Assembly: GCF_004310325.1 (NCBI RefSeq)
Contig: NZ_SIRT01000001.1
Location: forward strand, 186,001 to 250,000
Origin: Hyunsoonleella flava
GTDB lineage: Bacteria > Bacteroidota > Bacteroidia > Flavobacteriales > Flavobacteriaceae
Direction of reading: 5' to 3'
Length of the DNA stretch: 64,000 nt
Shown: positions 39,113-51,625 of the stretch, piece after piece
Layout: each line of letters starts with the position of its first letter
Numbering within the stretch: the first letter of the stretch is position 1
Notes under the pieces: model-generated
Database searches by the model: none
What the model was told of the DNA's origin: nothing
Seen by the model: only the letters and a program-made list of their open reading frames with translations
Made by a program: the position numbers and the translations under genes

Positions 39113-40279
39113 ATGAAAAATCGTTGTAACAATTTAAATTTATTTTTAGAACTATATAAAAACTCGCAGCTACCAAATTGTTATTCAGACTTAACTTATA
39201 AAAATCGGAGTATATTTAACAGTTTTAAAACATCAGATGATAAAAAATACTTGGTGTATTCGCATAATTTAACTCCTAGTTATTTAAATTATTCTATTGA
39301 TACTAAAGCATATAAGTTTAGTAAAATCAAGCAAACCAACGAGGGGTTTGTAATTGACCTGTCTGGAGTTTCCAGTGTACAGGAATACATGAATTTTCAC
39401 CTTAGCCAAAATTCAAGGAGAACCGTAAGAAGGGCAAGACAGCGTTTAGAGAATAGCTTTGATATTTCTTACAGAACATACAATGGTTATATACCTGAAA
39501 AAGAATATGATAAGCTTCTTAATGCTTTAGAAGTGATGCTAGATAAAAGAATGAAACAAAAAAAACTAGAAAATGAAAAATCAGCAGAATGGAAAAAAAT
39601 AAAGGAACATTTTTATAATTGTTTTAATAAAAAAAAGTCTACTATTTTCGTTATTTATGATTCAAATGAACCCATAGGAATTTCTCTCTATTATTTAGTA
39701 AATAAAGTTGTTTTTTGCTATATATTTTCATTTGATATTGATTATGTAAGGTTTGGTCTAGGGCATATAATTACTTTTAAGCAAGTTGAGTGGTGTTTTG
39801 AAAATGATTATGAAGTTATGGAGTTGGGTTATGGAGATCATGATTATAAAAGAAAATGGTGTAATAAAATTTATAATTTTGAGCACCATATTTTGTATGA
39901 GAGGAACTCTGTTAATGGTGTCATATGGGGCAAAATTGAATATTGTAAAATCTTTATTAAAGAGTTTCTAAAACGAAAAGGGCTAGATACATATTTAAAT
40001 ATGTTAAAACAAAATAAAAAATATAAAAATAAAAGTTATCAAAATAATAACGTATCTGAAGTCAGCTTTAATAACCTGTCAGAAACTGATGAAAATTTAA
40101 TTTGTACTGAAATCGATTGGAAGTCAGGTGAGTTTATATTCATTAAAAGGATTGTATTTGATTTTTTATACAAGTACCGAGAAAATGTCAATGATGTTAA
40201 ATTATTTAGAGTTGATAAGCAATTAGAAACATTTTTTATCCAAGGTAAGAAGAACAAAAAAAAGTTCATTTTAAGTTAG
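39113..40279 (+). CDS. GNAT/FemAB-like acyltransferase, tandem copy 1
   Basis: A 388-residue protein with a BioF2-like (Acetyltransf_6) GNAT domain in the middle (about 100-270): QNSRRTVRRARQRLENSF, then IFVIYDSNEPIGISLYY and the closing DYKRKWCNKIYNFEHHILY. The N-terminal about 90 residues and the C-terminal about 100 residues are not recognised. It has no signal or membrane segment. The gene is much more AT-rich than its neighbours and is followed 5 bp later by a paralogue. Such enzymes often modify surface polysaccharide or peptides. The substrate is unknown. Confidence 0.82.
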   Translation: MKNRCNNLNLFLELYKNSQLPNCYSDLTYKNRSIFNSFKTSDDKKYLVYSHNLTPSYLNYSIDTKAYKFSKIKQTNEGFVIDLSGVSSVQEYMNFHLSQNSRRTVRRARQRLENSFDISYRTYNGYIPEKEYDKLLNALEVMLDKRMKQKKLENEKSAEWKKIKEHFYNCFNKKKSTIFVIYDSNEPIGISLYYLVNKVVFCYIFSFDIDYVRFGLGHIITFKQVEWCFENDYEVMELGYGDHDYKRKWCNKIYNFEHHILYERNSVNGVIWGKIEYCKIFIKEFLKRKGLDTYLNMLKQNKKYKNKSYQNNNVSEVSFNNLSETDENLICTEIDWKSGEFIFIKRIVFDFLYKYRENVNDVKLFRVDKQLETFFIQGKKNKKKFILS

Positions 40280-40284
40280 ATTTT

Positions 40285-41460
40285 ATGACATACCTAAAGA
40301 TAAATAGAAAGAATTTTTATCATGACCTTTATGAAAGGCAAAACATACCAAAATGCATTTCGAGAATTAGTTTTGCAAACACTGATAACGTACTATATAA
40401 ATCTGAAAATTTATCTAATAATGAGCTAGATGAAAAAAAAATATATTCAATTCAAGTTATACCAGATTACTTCACGATTACGTATGATTCTTTTTTAAGT
40501 AAAAAAGTCATAAAAGAATTCCGTTTAGGATATGCGTCTAAATTAAATGAATTTAAAGATGTAAGAAGCTATGTGAAAAGTCAATATGGAAAGAATGCTA
40601 AGTCCGTTTTTAAAAGAGTTAAGCGCTTAGAGACTTGTTTTGACGTTAAATACGTTTTGTATCATGGACACATAGAAAGAGCTCAGTACGATTTTCTTAT
40701 GGACAGCCTTCGTAATATGCTTTTAAAAAGGTTTAAACAAAGGAATGATTCTAATTATCATATTAGCTCTTGGGACAAGTTATACAACAATATCTTCAAC
40801 CTTATTAAATTAAAGAAGGCTTCACTATTTGTAATATACAATGCAGATGAACCGATTCAAATAAATATTCAATACCACTTTAAAGGTATTTTAGTCAGTT
40901 CTGTTGCATCTTATAATATTGATTATCAAATTTTTGGATTGGGGAATACTGCGATATATAAACAGATAGAATGGTGTATTAACAATGATTATACTTTTTT
41001 TGATCAAGCGCATGGAGACTTAGACTATAAGCGTAGATGGAGTAATGTTATTTATGATTTTGAGCATCATATCTTATATTCTAAGAATGACTTAATATCA
41101 AGTTTAAGAGTATATATTGAGACCCTTAAAGTAATAACAAAAGGATTTTTAAGGAAGAAAAAAGTAATTGTTTCATTAAAAAGACTTAAAGATTATTTTT
41201 CCAAAAAAGCTAAGGACGTTGATGATATAGAAAAATATTATGAAATTATTGAAATAGAAAATTTTGAGTATGAGCTTAAAAAATTTTCATCAATAAATTG
41301 GAAATCTTTAGAATATAAATTTTTAATAAAAAGTATATGTGATTTTTTATATTATAATTTCGAACACTACAATGTCATAGAGGTATTCCAAAATAATTCT
41401 GTAAGTAATATATTTATAATAAGAGGGAATAATAATTTTCAAAAAATAGTCTTTCCTTAA
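40285..41460 (+). CDS. GNAT/FemAB-like acyltransferase, tandem copy 2
   Basis: A 391-residue paralogue of the preceding gene. Shared blocks: RNMLLKRFKQRND, SLFVIYNADEPIQINIQYH, GLGNTAIYKQIEWCINNDY, GDLDYKRRW and YDFEHHILY. The residues that differ most from copy 1 are in the pocket-proximal segment (FFDQAHGD against VMELGYGD), which suggests a change in substrate. The pair is in one operon with a 5-bp gap. Very AT-rich base composition hints at transfer or relaxed selection. Confidence 0.82.
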   Translation: MTYLKINRKNFYHDLYERQNIPKCISRISFANTDNVLYKSENLSNNELDEKKIYSIQVIPDYFTITYDSFLSKKVIKEFRLGYASKLNEFKDVRSYVKSQYGKNAKSVFKRVKRLETCFDVKYVLYHGHIERAQYDFLMDSLRNMLLKRFKQRNDSNYHISSWDKLYNNIFNLIKLKKASLFVIYNADEPIQINIQYHFKGILVSSVASYNIDYQIFGLGNTAIYKQIEWCINNDYTFFDQAHGDLDYKRRWSNVIYDFEHHILYSKNDLISSLRVYIETLKVITKGFLRKKKVIVSLKRLKDYFSKKAKDVDDIEKYYEIIEIENFEYELKKFSSINWKSLEYKFLIKSICDFLYYNFEHYNVIEVFQNNSVSNIFIIRGNNNFQKIVFP

Positions 41461-44726: not shown

Positions 44727-46796
44727 ATGAAAAACACCTCAGGTATTGTAACACCACCTGTTGCAAACAAAAAACCAAAAAAGCTTACCATACATAACGA
44801 TACTAGAATAGATAACTACCACTGGTTGAATCGGAGAGAAGATACCGAGGTTTTAGACTATTTGAATGCCGAAAACGCTTATACCAAAGCGATGATGAAG
44901 CACACAGAGGGTTTACAGAAATCATTATTTGAAGAAATGAAGGCAAGGATTAAAGAGAATGATACGTCTGTACCATATAAACTCAATGGCTATTGGTACA
45001 TTACAAGATTTGAGATAGGAAAGGATTATCCCGTTTATGCCCGGAAAAAGGAAAGCTTAGAGGTTGAAGAAGAAATAATGTTTGATTGTAATGTAATGGC
45101 AAAACAACATTCGTATTTCAAGTTAGGCGGTATTGCCATTAGTCCTGATAACACCATGGCGGCATTCTCAACAGATATTGTTAGTAGAAGGCAATATACT
45201 ATCAGAATAAAAAATTTAAAAACAGGCGAGGTTTACAAGGACGAAATTAAAAACACTACAGGCAGTATAACATGGGCAAACGACAATAAAACGTTGTTTT
45301 ACACCAAAAAGGACGAGGTAACACTTAGATCTTATAAAATATTTAAACATGTTTTGGGAACATATATTACTGAGGATGTTGAAGTATATCATGAAGCGGA
45401 TGAAACATTCAATACTTATATATATAAGACAAAATCCAAAAAATATCTGGTAATAGGTTCATCCAGTACACTATCAACTGAATATCGCATTCTAGATGCC
45501 GATACACCAGACGGTAAGTTTGAAGTATTTCAAGAGCGAATAAGGGATTTAGAATATTCCATCGCACACTTCAAGGGTAATTTTTATATCGTTACAAATG
45601 CTGACGCATCTACAAATTTTAAAGTATGTAAAACTCCTGAAGATAAGACTTCCAAAGACAATTGGATAGATATCATTCCACACCGAAACAATGTTTTGAT
45701 TGAAGATATTGAGATTTTCAAAGATTATTTAGTGGTTAATGAACGCGAAAACGGCTTGAATAACATCCGAATTATTCATTGGAATGGTAAAGAGGATTAC
45801 TATTTGCCTTTTGATAATGAAACTTATAACGCTTATATAGGCAATAATCCAGACTTTGAAAGTGAAACACTTCGTTATGGTTATAATTCCTTAACAACGC
45901 CCAGTTCTATTATCGATTATAACTTCAAAACAAAAACAAAGGATATAAAGAAAGAACAAGAGGTGTTGGGATGTAAATTCAAAAAAGAGAATTATGAGTC
46001 TCAACGTATTTGGCCTACTGCAAGGGATGGTGTAAAGATTCCAATGTCCATAGTATACAAAAAAGGTCTTAAGTTGGATGGTTCTAATCCAGTATTACAA
46101 TATGCTTATGGCTCTTATGGCTCCACTATAGACCCCACGTTTTCAAGTATAAGATTAAGTTTGCTGGATAGAGGTTTTATTTACGCCATTAGTCATGTTA
46201 GGGGAGGTGAGTATTTGGGTAGAGATTGGTACGAAAATGGAAAGTTGCTCTTAAAGAAAAATACTTTTACCGATTTTATAGATTGCTCAAAACATTTAAT
46301 TGCCAAAGGTTACACTTCAGAAAAACATCTTTATGCTTATGGTGGTTCGGCAGGAGGTTTATTGATTGGCGCAATAATTAATATGAATCCAGAGCTATAC
46401 AAAGGTGTTTTAGCAGCTGTTCCATTTGTGGATGTTGTTACTACAATGCTTGATGATAGTATTCCATTAACTACTGGGGAATATGATGAATGGGGAAACC
46501 CTAATAATATTGAGTTTTATAACTATATGAAATCGTATTCTCCGTACGATAATGTTGTAAGTCAAAATTACCCCAATATACTTGTTACTACAGGTTTACA
46601 TGATTCTCAAGTACAATATTGGGAACCTGCAAAATGGGTGGCAAAATTACGTGATTTAAAGACCGATGACAATAAATTACTTTTGCATATTGATATGGAT
46701 TCAGGTCACGGCGGTGCTTCAGGTAGGTTTGAGAGTTTAAAGGAAGTGGCTCTGGAATATGCATTTTTACTAGATTTAGAAGAGATTAGGCACTAA
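44727..46796 (+). CDS. S9-family prolyl oligopeptidase / oligopeptidase B-like
   Basis: A 689-residue serine peptidase. The N-terminal part (about 1-75, [19 protein letters not shown]) and beta-propeller are followed by the alpha/beta-hydrolase domain with [29 protein letters not shown] and the nucleophile in [13 protein letters not shown]; the Asp and His lie near [13 protein letters not shown] and [12 protein letters not shown]. The HVRGG and GHGGASGR patterns favour oligopeptidase B, which cleaves after basic residues in short peptides. The first ATG (44727) makes a cytosolic enzyme, but the upstream in-frame signal sequence suggests an exported lipoprotein. Confidence 0.88.
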
Positions 46797-46871: not shown

Positions 46872-47912
46872 ATGAAACAACAAAATAAAGTTTTTGACAA
46901 TGTATTAGATTTAGTAGGCAACACACCGCTTGTTAAACTTAATCGAATCACTTCAAAGCTAAAAGGGAAGTTTTACGCCAAAGTAGAATCTTTCAATCCA
47001 GGGCAATCTTCAAAAGATAGAATAGCACTTTATATTATAGAACAAGCTGAAAAGCAAGGTATTTTAAAACCAGGAGATACCATAATAGAAACCACATCTG
47101 GAAACACAGGTTTTAGTTTAGCTATGGTAAGTATCATCAAGGGTTATGATTGTATTCTTGCAGTAAGCTCTAAGTCTTCAGCAGATAAAATTGATATGCT
47201 GAAAACCATGGGGGCAAAAGTATATGTTTGTCCTGCTCACGTAAGCGCTGATGATCCTCGTTCTTATTATCAAGTAGCTAAGCGATTACATGATGAAATG
47301 AAGGGTTCTGTATATATAAATCAGTATTTTAACCAGTTAAACATTGATGCCCATTATGCATCTACTGGTCCAGAAATCTGGGAACAGACAGAGGGTAAAA
47401 TCACGCATTTGGTAGCTTGTAGTGGTACAGGTGGTACTATATCAGGTACGGCGAAGTATTTAAAGGAACAAAACCCCAACATTCAAGTCATTGGTGTTGA
47501 TGCTTTTGGTTCTGTGATTAAAAAATATCATGAAACTCGTGAGTTTGACGAGAAAGAGATTTATCCATATCGTATTGAAGGTTTAGGTAAAAACTTGATA
47601 CCAACAGCTACAGATTTTGATACAATTGACGAGTTTGTTAAAGTAAATGATGAAGACAGTGCGCACACTGCAAGAGAAATTGCCAAAACAGAAGGCATGT
47701 TCGTGGGGTATACATCCGGAGCTGCTATTCAGGCCATAAAGCAATTAGGAGAGGAGAAACGATTCAAAAAAGACGATTTAGTTGTTGTGATCTTTCCTGA
47801 TCACGGTTCAAGATATATGAGCAAAGTGTATTCTGATAAATGGATGAACGATCAAGGATTTTTTGATAGTATTCACGAAGAGGCTTCACAATCAATTCAA
47901 TACATAAAATAA
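46872..47912 (+). CDS. capA: CBS-like PLP synthase, probable cysteate synthase (CapA-like)
   Basis: A 346-residue fold-type II PLP enzyme. The Schiff-base lysine is in [13 protein letters not shown]; the substrate loop is [14 protein letters not shown]; the phosphate-binding loop is [15 protein letters not shown]. It lacks the regulatory CBS domains. These features fit cysteine synthase/cystathionine beta-synthase; the unusual GQSSKDR in place of GSVKDR and the position before an alpha-oxoamine synthase suggest CapA, described as CBS-related and making cysteate from O-phosphoserine and sulfite for capnine lipids. If not, it is a cysteine or cystathionine synthase. A strong terminator lies between it and the next gene. 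Confidence 0.7.
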
Positions 47913-47936
47913 TAAGTAAATACATACTTTTAATAG

Positions 47937-47978
47937 AAATGGTTTTTTGTTTTATCGCAAAAAACCATTTCTTTTTTT
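47937..47978 (+). terminator. Terminator after the capA-like gene
   Basis: The arms GAAATGGTTTTTT and AAAAAACCATTTC are perfect over 13 bp, followed by seven T. Confidence 0.88.
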
Positions 47979-48005
47979 ATTTTGTCAATAATTGAAGGGC
48001 AAAAA

Positions 48006-48037
48006 TTGTGCATAAACCAGATAAATATTTAATTTTG
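48006..48037 (+). promoter_or_regulatory. Bacteroidetes-type promoter of the capB-like gene
   Basis: TTG at 48006-48008 and TAATTTTG at 48030-48037 with a 21-nt spacer. The 5' leader is then about 95 nt. Confidence 0.6.
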
Positions 48038-48139
48038 CAGCAACTAACTAGGAACTAAAAACTTCGTGTCTAAACATAAACGAACGATTCAAAACGTTCA
48101 AAAACACATGTTTAATTTTAGAGTTATATTTAATAGTAG

Positions 48140-49399
48140 ATGAAAGATTTATTTGATAAGATTTACAAGGATAAAGGACCTTTAGGAAAATGGGCGGCTC
48201 ATGCAGAAGGATATTTTGTGTTTCCTAAACTTGAAGGAGAGATTTCAAACAGAATGAAATTTCAAGGCAAAGACGTTATTACTTGGAGTATAAATGATTA
48301 TTTAGGTTTGGCAAATCATCCAGAGGTTAGAAAGGTTGATGCCGAAGCTGCGGCAGAATATGGTTCCGCTTATCCAATGGGGGCTCGTATGATGTCTGGT
48401 CATACTAACCTTCATGAGCAATTACAAAATGAATTGGCTGCATTTGTTAAAAAAGAAGCAGCATATCTTTTGAATTTTGGATATCAAGGAATGGTATCTA
48501 CTATTGATGCACTTGTTGCTAAAGATGATATTATTGTTTATGACGTTGATGCACATGCTTGTATCATAGATGGTGTGCGTTTGCATATGGGTAAACGTTT
48601 TACCTACAAGCACAATGACGTAGATAGTTTAGAGAAAAACTTAGAACGCGCCACTAAAATGGCAGAACAAACAGGAGGAGGTATTTTAGTGATTTCTGAA
48701 GGAGTTTTTGGTATGCGTGGTGAGCAAGGACGTTTAAAAGAAATTGTTGCGCTTAAAAAGAAGTTTAAATTCAGGCTATTTGTTGATGATGCTCACGGAT
48801 TTGGAACTCTAGGGGCAACGGGAGCCGGAGCGGGTGAGGAGCAAGGTGTTCAGGATGACATTGATGTATATTTTGCAACATTTGCCAAATCTATGGCAAG
48901 TACAGGTGCTTTTATAGCTGGCGATCAGGAAATTATTGACTATTTAAAATACAACTTGCGTTCTCAAATGTTTGCAAAATCATTGCAAATGCAATTGGTG
49001 AAAGGTGCCCTAAAGCGTTTGGATATGTTGAGAACAATGCCAGAGCTAAAAGAAAACCTATGGAAGATTGTTAATGCACTTCAATCTGGTTTAAAAGACA
49101 GAGGTTTTGATATTGGTACCACTCAAAGTTGCGTGACTCCTGTATATTTAAAAGGTAGTATTCCTGAAGCAATGGCGCTAGTTAAAGACTTGCGTGAAAA
49201 TTACGGAATATTCTGTTCTATAGTGGTTTACCCTGTAATACCTAAAGGATTAATTTTACTAAGAATGATTCCAACTGCTACACATACTTTAGAAGATGTA
49301 AGAGAAACGTTGGATGCTTTTGATGCTATTCGAGACAGATTACAAAACGGAACTTACAAGCGCTTATCTGCGGCTGTAATGTCTGCTATGGGCGAATAA
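48140..49399 (+). CDS. capB: Alpha-oxoamine synthase, probable cysteate-C-fatty acyltransferase (CapB-like)
   Basis: A 419-residue fold-type I PLP enzyme that condenses an amino acid with an acyl-CoA and releases CO2, like serine palmitoyltransferase. It opens with an extra segment (KDKGPLGKWAAHAEGYFVFP), then WSINDYLGLANHPEV, the acyl-binding HACIIDGVRLHMGKRF, the PLP site FVDDAHGFGTLGATGAGAG and the lysine in FATFAKSMASTGAF. Position right after a CBS-like enzyme and next to a GNAT acyltransferase points to CapB, which joins cysteate and a branched acyl-CoA to dehydrocapnine. Serine palmitoyltransferase or AONS remain possible. Confidence 0.72.
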   Translation: MKDLFDKIYKDKGPLGKWAAHAEGYFVFPKLEGEISNRMKFQGKDVITWSINDYLGLANHPEVRKVDAEAAAEYGSAYPMGARMMSGHTNLHEQLQNELAAFVKKEAAYLLNFGYQGMVSTIDALVAKDDIIVYDVDAHACIIDGVRLHMGKRFTYKHNDVDSLEKNLERATKMAEQTGGGILVISEGVFGMRGEQGRLKEIVALKKKFKFRLFVDDAHGFGTLGATGAGAGEEQGVQDDIDVYFATFAKSMASTGAFIAGDQEIIDYLKYNLRSQMFAKSLQMQLVKGALKRLDMLRTMPELKENLWKIVNALQSGLKDRGFDIGTTQSCVTPVYLKGSIPEAMALVKDLRENYGIFCSIVVYPVIPKGLILLRMIPTATHTLEDVRETLDAFDAIRDRLQNGTYKRLSAAVMSAMGE

Positions 49400-49419
49400 G
49401 AACGTTATAAAATGTTATA

Positions 49420-49455
49420 AAAAAAGGTTCGGTATAAATTATCGAACCTTTTTCT
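49420..49455. terminator. Bidirectional terminator between the capB-like and GNAT genes
   Basis: AAAAAGGTTCG pairs with CGAACCTTTTT, with A and T runs outside. Confidence 0.85.
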
Positions 49456-49457
49456 TT

Positions 49458-50576
49458 TTATAAATCTTTTCTGAAAGTTTTCCTTTTCCTATAGACTTCT
49501 GGATTGAAATGTTTCCAAATATTATGAATGGCATGGTTATCCTCTAATTCAGGAGTACGATAACACATTTTAATCCCTTTTTCGGTAAATGTATTGTAAT
49601 ATTCATTGAAAATAACAGCATGAACGCCTTTGTTTTGATATTCTGGGTGAATGCCAATTAAATAGAAGTTTACATCCTTACTGTGTTTTTTAGCTTTTAG
49701 GATATGGGAAAAACCAAACGGAAACAATTTCCCTTTAGCTTTTTGTAATGCTTCGGCATAAGACGGCATTACAATAGCAAAGCCAATAAGTTTATCATCT
49801 TTATCTACTACGAACTTTATGTATTCTGGATTGATAAAATTCAAGAATTTCTTCTTAAAATATTCTTTTTGAATATCAGTAATGGCAACAAAACTAGATA
49901 GTGAAGCGTAGGTTTCATTAAACAAATCAAACATTTTATCAGCATATGGCATAACCTCTTCGGTTTTATTAAAGGTTAGTGCTTTTAGTTGATATCTGCG
50001 CTTTATAAGCGCTTGAGCTTTCATAAAAGTATCGGGGTCTACATTAGAAAAAGGAAATCTACTTTCTATATAGCCTTTTTCAATGGTGTACCCTGCTGCC
50101 TCATAGTGCTTAATGTAATATTCGTGGTTGTACCAAGTAACCATGGGTGTAATGGCATCAAAACCTTCATCTATTACCCCAACTTTATCAAGATTTGAAA
50201 ATCCTACGGGTCCTTCGGCGAATTCAAGGTTGTTTTCTATTCCTATAGCCTCTACTTTTTCCAATAATGCTTTTGAAACATCCAGATCATCAATAAAATC
50301 AAACCAACCAAAACGCATTTTCTTTTGACTCTGGTTTTTCACTTCCAACCAGTTAATAATAGCCGCCACACGCCCAACTATTTCATTATTTTTATAGGCC
50401 AAAAACAGTCGCGCATCTGCATCATTGAAAACTGGATTTTCATTCTTATCAAAAGTTTTTAACTCTTGACTTATAATTGGCGGTGTCCAGTATTTTGAGC
50501 CTTCATACAATTTAAAAGGAAACTTAACGAATGCTTTTAAATCGCGTTTGGAAGTCACTTCTTCTATTCTAATCAT
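49458..50576 (-). CDS. GNAT-family acyltransferase, candidate N-acyltransferase of sulfonolipid or ceramide
   Basis: A 372-residue protein with two regions: the N-terminal half (MIRIEEVTSKRDLKAFVKFP, GRVAAIINW, FAEGPVGFSNLDKVGV) and a C-terminal GNAT core with VNFYLIGIHPEYQNKGVHAV (acetyl-CoA site R/Q-x-x-G-x form) and EDNHAIHNIWKHF. No signal peptide. It converges with the capB-like gene across a shared terminator. Bacterial ceramide synthase of Caulobacter is also a GNAT-type protein, so a role in N-acylating capnine or dihydrosphingosine is plausible (inference). It is 20 bp downstream of an outer-membrane protein gene. Confidence 0.8.
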   Translation of the reverse strand: MIRIEEVTSKRDLKAFVKFPFKLYEGSKYWTPPIISQELKTFDKNENPVFNDADARLFLAYKNNEIVGRVAAIINWLEVKNQSQKKMRFGWFDFIDDLDVSKALLEKVEAIGIENNLEFAEGPVGFSNLDKVGVIDEGFDAITPMVTWYNHEYYIKHYEAAGYTIEKGYIESRFPFSNVDPDTFMKAQALIKRRYQLKALTFNKTEEVMPYADKMFDLFNETYASLSSFVAITDIQKEYFKKKFLNFINPEYIKFVVDKDDKLIGFAIVMPSYAEALQKAKGKLFPFGFSHILKAKKHSKDVNFYLIGIHPEYQNKGVHAVIFNEYYNTFTEKGIKMCYRTPELEDNHAIHNIWKHFNPEVYRKRKTFRKDL

Positions 50577-50596: not shown

Positions 50597-51625
50597 TTAT
50601 TTGTCGAAATCTTCATCCTTTCTTTTGCGTTTTTTAACTTTATTTTCATCCGTTGCGATATCTTTTTTGCTTTTTTTCTTTTTTCTCTTCTTTTTTCCTC
50701 TTCTATTCTTTCTTTCTAATTCATCCTCGGCTGAATTCCCATTGTCAATTTCTTTGTCCTTGTGAAAATCAAACCTGTAAGAGGCACCTAGTGTTAGATT
50801 TAAAACCGAAGGCGTATCTTTTGTGTTAAATGTTACAGCAGTATCTAGCTGGAAGTTTTTATCCCATAAATATGCACCTCCAAATCGTAATAAATTATCT
50901 GCATAAAAATCACTTTTAATACCTTGAGTTTCACCAAAAACTACCCATTGTGGACTAAATGAATGGGTGAGCGTTAATATGTATGAGAAATCGGATTGGT
51001 TTGTGCCAATTCTATCCTTAATCAAATTCATTACAAACACCCAGCCGCCATTAAAATTATTTTGCGTAGCAATCATTACTTTTGGACTAAAACCTTCGAT
51101 ACCGGGAGCGGTGTAGGGATTATTTTCGGTATCATAATTTGCGCCAACGTATACCGCTACAGCTGGAATTAATGATTTCCATCTAAAGCTGTGATTAGCT
51201 TTCCAGCTGTAAAGGTTTGGTTTTTCACTTTCGGTGTTTTTGTAAGGGTCAAAAATAAGATACTTAGCTCCAAGCGTGAGATATCTAAAGTTGGAACGTG
51301 GATCTTTAGTTGTAAAAGTTGAGATATTTGTTCTAGTGTCATTCTGGTAATTCCCCTCAATATTTATTTCAAGTTGCTCAAATAGCAAGCCATATCTAGC
51401 AGAAAAGTCAACTCCAAAACCGGATATCTCATATCTGGGCAAGGGTGTTCTTTCTTCTTTAATGTATAGTGGACCAACTTCAAATTGCAGCACGTTTGTC
51501 CCTACTGAAAAGGCGCTTCTGGACATGCCAGGTCTGTTGGAGTTTATAACTTCTGTATACTGTGCAAAAAGGCAATTGCTGCCAATTAATACCGAAGCAA
51601 TAAGCAGATGTTTAAAGATTTTCAT
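50597..51625 (-). CDS. Outer-membrane barrel protein (MetA-type transporter fold) with polybasic tail
   Basis: A 342-residue protein with a signal peptide (residues 1-21, ending CLFAQ), a barrel region of about 260 residues (RPGMSRSAFSVGTNVLQFEV, LGASYRFDFHKDKE) that resembles the phenol-degradation MetA-like transporter family, and an unusual C-terminal tail of about 55 residues with several Lys/Arg runs (RRGKKKRKKKKSKKD). A periplasmic polybasic tail could bind acidic lipids or lipopolysaccharide. It is in one operon with the GNAT gene. Confidence 0.78.
   Translation of the reverse strand: MKIFKHLLIASVLIGSNCLFAQYTEVINSNRPGMSRSAFSVGTNVLQFEVGPLYIKEERTPLPRYEISGFGVDFSARYGLLFEQLEINIEGNYQNDTRTNISTFTTKDPRSNFRYLTLGAKYLIFDPYKNTESEKPNLYSWKANHSFRWKSLIPAVAVYVGANYDTENNPYTAPGIEGFSPKVMIATQNNFNGGWVFVMNLIKDRIGTNQSDFSYILTLTHSFSPQWVVFGETQGIKSDFYADNLLRFGGAYLWDKNFQLDTAVTFNTKDTPSVLNLTLGASYRFDFHKDKEIDNGNSAEDELERKNRRGKKKRKKKKSKKDIATDENKVKKRKRKDEDFDK

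Follow-up and report, generated by a model that had tools for sequence, protein, structure and literature searches.

In the described capnine pathway, CapA, CapB and CapC act ahead of an N-acylation, and the review in which this route is set out (PMC10191378), in the portion available, names no enzyme for that final step. The same source reports that sulfonolipids are required for gliding, trigger rosettes in choanoflagellates (RIF-1) and are pro-inflammatory; the reductase of the pathway, KCR, is treated in PMC11211663, and SulA is described in PMC9304779. Among bacterial ceramide synthases (bCerS/CerS/Aca), yghO (ECD_02850) and CC_1154 are given jointly under the name 'aca', the N-acyltransferase needed to make dihydroceramide, and E. 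coli BL21 may be capable of such N-acylation by itself (PMC9386255); BF9343_4218 of B. fragilis is used as the CerS reference (PMC10865984). The aminolipid N-acyltransferases OlsB, OlsF and GlsB likewise form amides on bacterial lipids, a likeness drawn from their description only (PMC11631085). A literature search, limited to a collection that lacks the majority of preprints and subscription articles, turned up no title, abstract or passage in which a sulfonolipid N-acyltransferase is named.

Here we analyse a window of 64,000 nucleotides from Hyunsoonleella flava (contig NZ_SIRT01000001.1, positions 186,001 to 250,000 of the forward strand), in which capA and capB lie in series and a gene encoding a GNAT protein faces capB across 58 bp (Table 1). 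We consider it likely that, of the four enzymes needed for sulfonolipid (N-acyl-capnine) synthesis, three are encoded at this locus, and that the GNAT protein is this organism's sulfonolipid N-acyltransferase. By model and structure match, CapA and CapB are ordinary members of known families, and the facing GNAT gene is what the window adds to the CapA/CapB/CapC pathway, and a new candidate for the N-acylation step left without a named enzyme in the literature searched. The GNAT protein resembles bCerS/CerS/Aca in its full-length homology to YghO, its predicted tandem GNAT fold, and the position of its relatives behind serine palmitoyltransferase (SPT), but differs in that its partner would be CapB instead of SPT, that no CerR-like protein was found in the genome, and that a sulfonate head group is expected.

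In the pathway we propose, CapA would form cysteate from O-phosphoserine and sulfite, and CapB would condense cysteate with an acyl thioester to give 3-ketocapnine. A short-chain dehydrogenase/reductase (CapC/KCR type) would reduce this to capnine, and the GNAT protein would use a coenzyme A or acyl carrier protein thioester to place a second acyl group on the amine of capnine or, with lower likelihood, of 3-ketocapnine. In this scheme we infer which substrate and which acyl donor the GNAT protein uses, and whether it acts after the reductase or before it.

Family identity of the three proteins

All three open reading frames lie where a sequence-only reading of this DNA had placed them, each with an ATG start. 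The first protein scores 654 bits against the CysteaSynCapA model NF053679, above the curated equivalog cut-off of 600, and 404 bits against the cystathionine beta-synthase (CBS) model, below its cut-off of 510; cysteine synthase (CysK) models likewise fall below cut-off. Besides a PALP domain it has only a sub-threshold PK_C match, and a domain scan of the protein found no regulatory CBS domain, in keeping with the earlier description of a CBS-fold enzyme devoid of such domains. The genome carries a single CapA, which is an ordinary member of the known cysteate synthase family; its identity is set at family level by model score, and cysteate-forming activity is predicted. In our sample of 395 Bacteroidota genomes, CapA exceeds the cut-off in 41, precisely the set that makes up the window's own family (f1, 41 genomes; includes Psychroflexus curvus, Flavobacteriaceae). 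CapA proteins of a second family (f2, 8 genomes) score 540-552 bits, below the cut-off, and adjoin CapB.

The second protein matches PDB entry 28eh, 'Cysteate-C-fatty acyltransferase', at 723 bits over residues 1-419, and entry 7u7h, which we take to be SulA of A. finegoldii, at 583 bits, compared with 245 bits for the SPT 3a2b. It is below cut-off in all SPT, glycine C-acetyltransferase (KBL) and BioF models; the three SPT equivalog models return 298, 270 and 200 bits against cut-offs of 640, 500 and 670, respectively, which places it outside the SPT family. Since 28eh covers the protein from residue 1 onward, and the SPT and KBL models align from residue 25 onward or later, the N-terminal extension remarked upon in the sequence-only reading is real. 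In a rapidly built phylogeny of 46 alpha-oxoamine synthases, which drew several long-branch warnings and used comparators other than C. ochracea CapB, the protein falls in a CapB clade with 100% support (Shimodaira-Hasegawa-like approximate likelihood ratio test, SH-aLRT), separate from SPTs and from the KBL of the same genome. CapB is an ordinary member of the cysteate fatty-acyl transferase family, at which level its identity is set, and its use of cysteate is predicted. Both earlier assignments are borne out, namely of the first enzyme to CapA over cysteine synthase, and of the second to CapB over SPT, KBL or 8-amino-7-oxononanoate synthase. Two genomes (G331:C1:1820815 and 3763254; G312:C34:25132 and C16:98925) each hold an additional CapB-like gene that has diverged, with 58% and 49% identity to capB of the window.

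The GNAT protein matches one GNAT domain in Pfam (27.9 bits; gathering score 20.7) and no NCBIfam model, and neither single-sequence (best E 0.048) nor profile searches found a significant sequence match in the PDB. Its AlphaFold2 model has a mean predicted local distance difference test score of 92.6 and a predicted template modelling (TM) score of 0.89. The top Foldseek matches of this model are 2wpw and 7q3a, both named as tandem GNATs, and the glucosamine N-acetyltransferase 5kga, with TM-scores of 0.55-0.63 by query length; the model thereby points to the two-part, tandem GNAT architecture that had been read from the sequence. A Q-x-x-G motif binds pantetheine in GNATs. The C-terminal half of the protein contains PEYQNKGV, which resembles this motif, and no Q-x-x-G-type motif was seen by eye in the N-terminal half. 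The protein aligns over its whole length with YghO, the E. coli member of the family (25% identity, E 8e-35; hhalign probability 99.9), and by this homology belongs to the bacterial ceramide synthase family (CC_1154/YghO), the link to Caulobacter being made through YghO. CCNA_01212 is presumably the same gene as CC_1154. By family, the GNAT protein is very probably a long-chain-base N-acyltransferase.

The content of the genome narrows the choice of base. At E<=1e-3 it has two alpha-oxoamine synthases, CapB and a second that scores 671 bits against the KBL model (cut-off 493); no SPT was found in it at E<=1e-120 and no CerR-like reductase at E<=1e-20. The GNAT family has one member in this genome, where CapB was found and SPT was not, and CapB is therefore a possible partner. 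As CerR was not found either, capnine is the likeliest substrate, and we file the protein as a ceramide synthase homologue, not as a ceramide synthase, because neither SPT nor CerR was found.

Distribution and descent of the GNAT family

Relatives of the GNAT protein occur in 378 of the 395 genomes at E<=1e-3, many of the matches being distant, while CapB is present in 139 (E<=1e-100) and SPT-like proteins in 298 (NF047600, E<=1e-120; 17 above the curated cut-off). The family accompanies 369 of the 379 genomes with CapB or SPT, comprising 235/240 with SPT only, 76/81 with CapB only and 58/58 with both, versus 9/16 with neither, several of these 16 being incomplete assemblies. Fisher's test of GNAT family against CapB or SPT presence gives p 6e-7, a descriptive value that ignores shared ancestry. 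A profile search covered 31 CapB genomes, picked for first matches that were mostly distant or missing, and recovered a full-length family member in 26.

Gene neighbourhoods reflect the same association. Adjacency was counted over the best 150 GNAT and best 150 SPT places by score, and over 85 of the listed CapB places, among them the top-scoring one in each f1 genome. Where both SPT and a GNAT relative are among the places listed (53 genomes), the relative follows SPT on the same strand in 36, with gaps of 20-276 bp. Of the first 20 loci drawn, a set fetched mostly for GNAT-SPT adjacency, 14 have a CerR-like epimerase three genes or fewer from SPT; the best CerR-like matches in family f18 lie on contigs other than that of the GNAT, and give no anchor for CerR near GNAT. 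Within f1, GNAT and CapB are at most 1.5 kb apart in 25, and at most 10 kb in 29, of the 39 GNAT-bearing genomes, always convergently. We also fetched 80 capB loci with a single Psychroflexus CapB as query. Of these, 79 contain CapA, which in 78 is the immediate same-strand neighbour of CapB; 52 contain GNAT, convergent with capB in every case and within 300 bp in 43. This recurrence takes the capA-capB-GNAT arrangement beyond chance, and upholds the association of GNAT with capB in other genomes that had been predicted. At one such locus, in Lacinutrix neustonica (L205:8419-9449), the GNAT behind capB is present as three short open reading frames (81, 164 and 97 amino acids), reflecting either disruption of the gene or a fault in the assembly.

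Beyond chromosomes, a clade I relative (clades are defined below) found 45 plasmid records by tblastn. In five of the seven examined (Aureispira, Rubrobacter, Streptomyces, E. coli and Rahnella) an alpha-oxoamine synthase and a nicotinamide adenine dinucleotide-dependent epimerase/oxidoreductase lie a few genes off; in the other two (Roseomonas and Diaphorobacter) LptF/LptG-family permeases precede the relative, and the stretches displayed carry no annotated alpha-oxoamine synthase. Two E. coli records filed as plasmids carry yghO, namely NZ_MG591698.1 (L346), together with the whole spt cluster and adjacent glc genes, and NZ_OL790696.1, which is 4.8 Mb long; these may be misfiled chromosomal sequence.

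A quick, midpoint-rooted tree of 109 of 209 GNAT sequences (near-duplicates above 72% identity removed) contains three groups. Clade I is SPT-linked, with SPT within two genes for 16 of 20 members, many of which were fetched for that; it formed one clade in an earlier tree, and is not separated from clade III in the 109-sequence tree. Clade III (34 members, 99% support) comes from CapB genomes in 34/34 cases, most having been fetched from such genomes. Clade II (54 members) includes the GNAT protein of the window and the CapB-facing copies of Flavobacteriaceae, as well as two copies (L092, L093) inside SPT-GNAT-epimerase clusters. Positions 121 (E/D), 367 (T) and 369 (R/K) divide the CapB-linked clades from the SPT-linked clade. 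At a 0.8/0.3 threshold, two positions are common to the CapB-linked groups alone (and two to the other two groups), versus one and one under the alternative grouping, which like the first departs from the tree; looser thresholds also gave no clear excess, and we rejected specificity residues as evidence, keeping them as a lead.

Copy number was assessed in 80 of 115 chosen genomes, with clade III recognized by a profile score of 200-285 bits. An additional clade III copy is present in 21 of 33 genomes with CapB and SPT, versus 1 of 47 with SPT only, and in family f3 genomes with both enzymes have two GNAT copies (5/5), and those with SPT alone (2/2) or CapB alone (3/3) have one. The GNAT family is older, and its ties to SPT are no less frequent than those to CapB. 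Tentatively, and with somewhat less than even confidence, we suggest that sulfonolipid synthesis took on members of the bacterial ceramide synthase family on two or more occasions, clade II next to capB in Flavobacteriaceae and clade III in other families with CapB, and that the count of GNAT copies tends to track that of the enzymes forming long-chain bases. By the same proposal Gramella, Salegentibacter, Mesonia, Gillisia and Psychroflexus would be natural knock-outs, which should accumulate un-acylated capnine. Because there is a single-copy candidate facing capB, an anchor in a family for ceramide synthesis, and a set of capAB genomes devoid of GNAT, the N-acylation step is directly testable in genetically tractable Flavobacterium. 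In Flavobacterium johnsoniae, of which a laboratory strain exists, the cysteate fatty-acyl transferase is Fjoh_2419.

Competing explanations for the role of the GNAT protein

The sequence-only reading had proposed the GNAT protein as the possible capnoid N-acyltransferase. This proposal gains from the family link to YghO and the Caulobacter ceramide synthase and from the association with capB, and loses generality in that one capAB lineage does without the protein. Psychroflexus, Mesonia, Gramella, Salegentibacter and a Gillisia metagenome-assembled genome carry capAB and have no GNAT family member genome-wide (5/5); the same search, of 17 genomes in all, found none in two further metagenome-assembled genomes, perhaps because these are incomplete, and one copy in each of the remaining 10. 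Either this lineage makes free capnine, or another N-acyltransferase serves it, or the GNAT protein is not tied to sulfonolipids. Several other observations weigh in the same direction. Three of the 139 CapB genomes lack the family and two have weak partial matches only, and the family occurs in more than half of the genomes that have neither CapB nor SPT. Among the 33 genomes with both enzymes, the 12 devoid of an additional clade III copy have a single copy (nine) or a clade II second copy (three). Clade II is also found in SPT-only genomes without CapB (f11, f17 and others), adjoining no alpha-oxoamine synthase. Such copies include L072-L078, L080, L083, L090 and L091, among others, and several of the genomes also have an SPT-adjacent copy. 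Further, as capB and the GNAT gene are convergent, with a terminator-like hairpin between them, they are probably not co-transcribed. Lastly, earlier work cited in PMC11334938 holds that the genes for Spt, bCerS and CerR do not lie near one another in Bacteroidota that produce sphingolipids, which differs from the SPT-GNAT adjacency found here and agrees with the 17 of 53 genomes in which the GNAT relative does not adjoin SPT.

The best-surviving alternative, although an unlikely one in our judgement, retains the GNAT protein in sulfonolipid synthesis and reverses the last two steps, so that 3-ketocapnine is N-acylated first and reduced last. This is the order proposed for Caulobacter ceramide, in which bCerS is proposed to act ahead of CerR (PMC11087976). 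Against its transfer to capnine, the reductases of C. gleum and A. finegoldii act on a free 3-ketocapnine analogue (PMC11211663), and the CerR-like epimerase was found in none of five CapB-only genomes searched, that of the window included, versus all five SPT genomes.

Less probable still is that the GNAT protein acylates some other amine, such as a protein, a different aminolipid or a long-chain base obtained by scavenging, with its position beside capB an inherited synteny. The convergent, separately terminated genes, the capAB lineage devoid of GNAT, and the clade II copies of SPT-only genomes that adjoin no alpha-oxoamine synthase would all fit such a role, as would three f24 loci (L121, L122 and L123). 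There, a clade II GNAT is clustered with FabA-like, ketoacyl-synthase, small (~86 amino acids) and glycosyltransferase-2 proteins, which hints at another role for clade II in that family. The family-wide tie of GNAT to SPT and CapB argues against this reading, as does the presence of clade II members L092 and L093 within SPT-GNAT-epimerase clusters, and CapB is the only long-chain-base-forming enzyme found in the genome of the window. That the locus makes ceramide, in which case CapB would use serine, the GNAT protein would be a ceramide synthase of the usual kind and the first gene would encode cystathionine beta-synthase or cysteine synthase, is very improbable, for although sphingolipid and cysteine metabolism share these enzyme superfamilies, the CapA model is exceeded where the CBS and CysK models are not, CapB falls in its own clade nearer cysteate acyltransferases than SPT, and the genome has no CerR-like protein at E<=1e-20.

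Layout of the locus and flanking genes

By its layout the locus does not appear to be an operon. The terminator-like hairpin with its T-run after capA makes it probable that capA is transcribed separately from capB. The -7 promoter motif of Bacteroidota is TAnnTTTG, and a match to it was found by eye ahead of capB. A scan for terminators returned a total of 4, against a shuffle mean of 3.4, which is no excess overall.

Table 1. Features of the capA-capB-GNAT locus and its flanks (positions within the window).
Feature	Position	Strand	Details
Oligopeptidase-B-like peptidase gene	44727..46796	+	NF007511 795 bits, below cut-off 1313
capA, predicted cysteate synthase	46872..47912	+	346 aa, ATG start; NCBIfam NF053679 CysteaSynCapA match
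Terminator-like hairpin 3' of capA	47935..47972	+	16 pairs, T-run
TAATTTTG, fits -7 promoter motif TAnnTTTG	48030..48037	+	~100 bp ahead of capB; match by eye
capB / CFAT / SulA, predicted cysteate fatty-acyl transferase (3-ketocapnine)	48140..49399	+	419 aa, ATG start; 28eh match
Two-sided terminator-like hairpin between convergent capB and GNAT	49421..49453	.	A-run before stem, T-run after
GNAT, probable capnine N-acyltransferase, CC_1154/YghO family homologue	49458..50576	-	372 aa, ATG start; fold, YghO homology, neighbourhood, distribution, tree
PF13557 (MetA-pathway) protein, possibly outer-membrane	50597..51625	-	106 bits; 20 bp upstream of GNAT, same strand

Elsewhere in the window lies a tandem pair of PF13480-type GNAT genes (39113-40279 and 40285-41460, the second slightly below the gathering score), to which the profile of the capB-facing GNAT protein's family gives no match. 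The oligopeptidase-B-like gene ahead of capA has no obvious link to lipids; it precedes capA in 77 of the 80 loci fetched with Psychroflexus CapB, and is probably a case of conserved synteny that lies outside the sulfonolipid pathway. The PF13557 gene upstream of GNAT is present in 48 of the 52 GNAT-bearing loci of that set, and in the GNAT-less Mesonia, Gramella, Salegentibacter and Gillisia metagenome-assembled genome it directly follows capB, at the site where GNAT would be expected; its product possibly has a role in lipid export.

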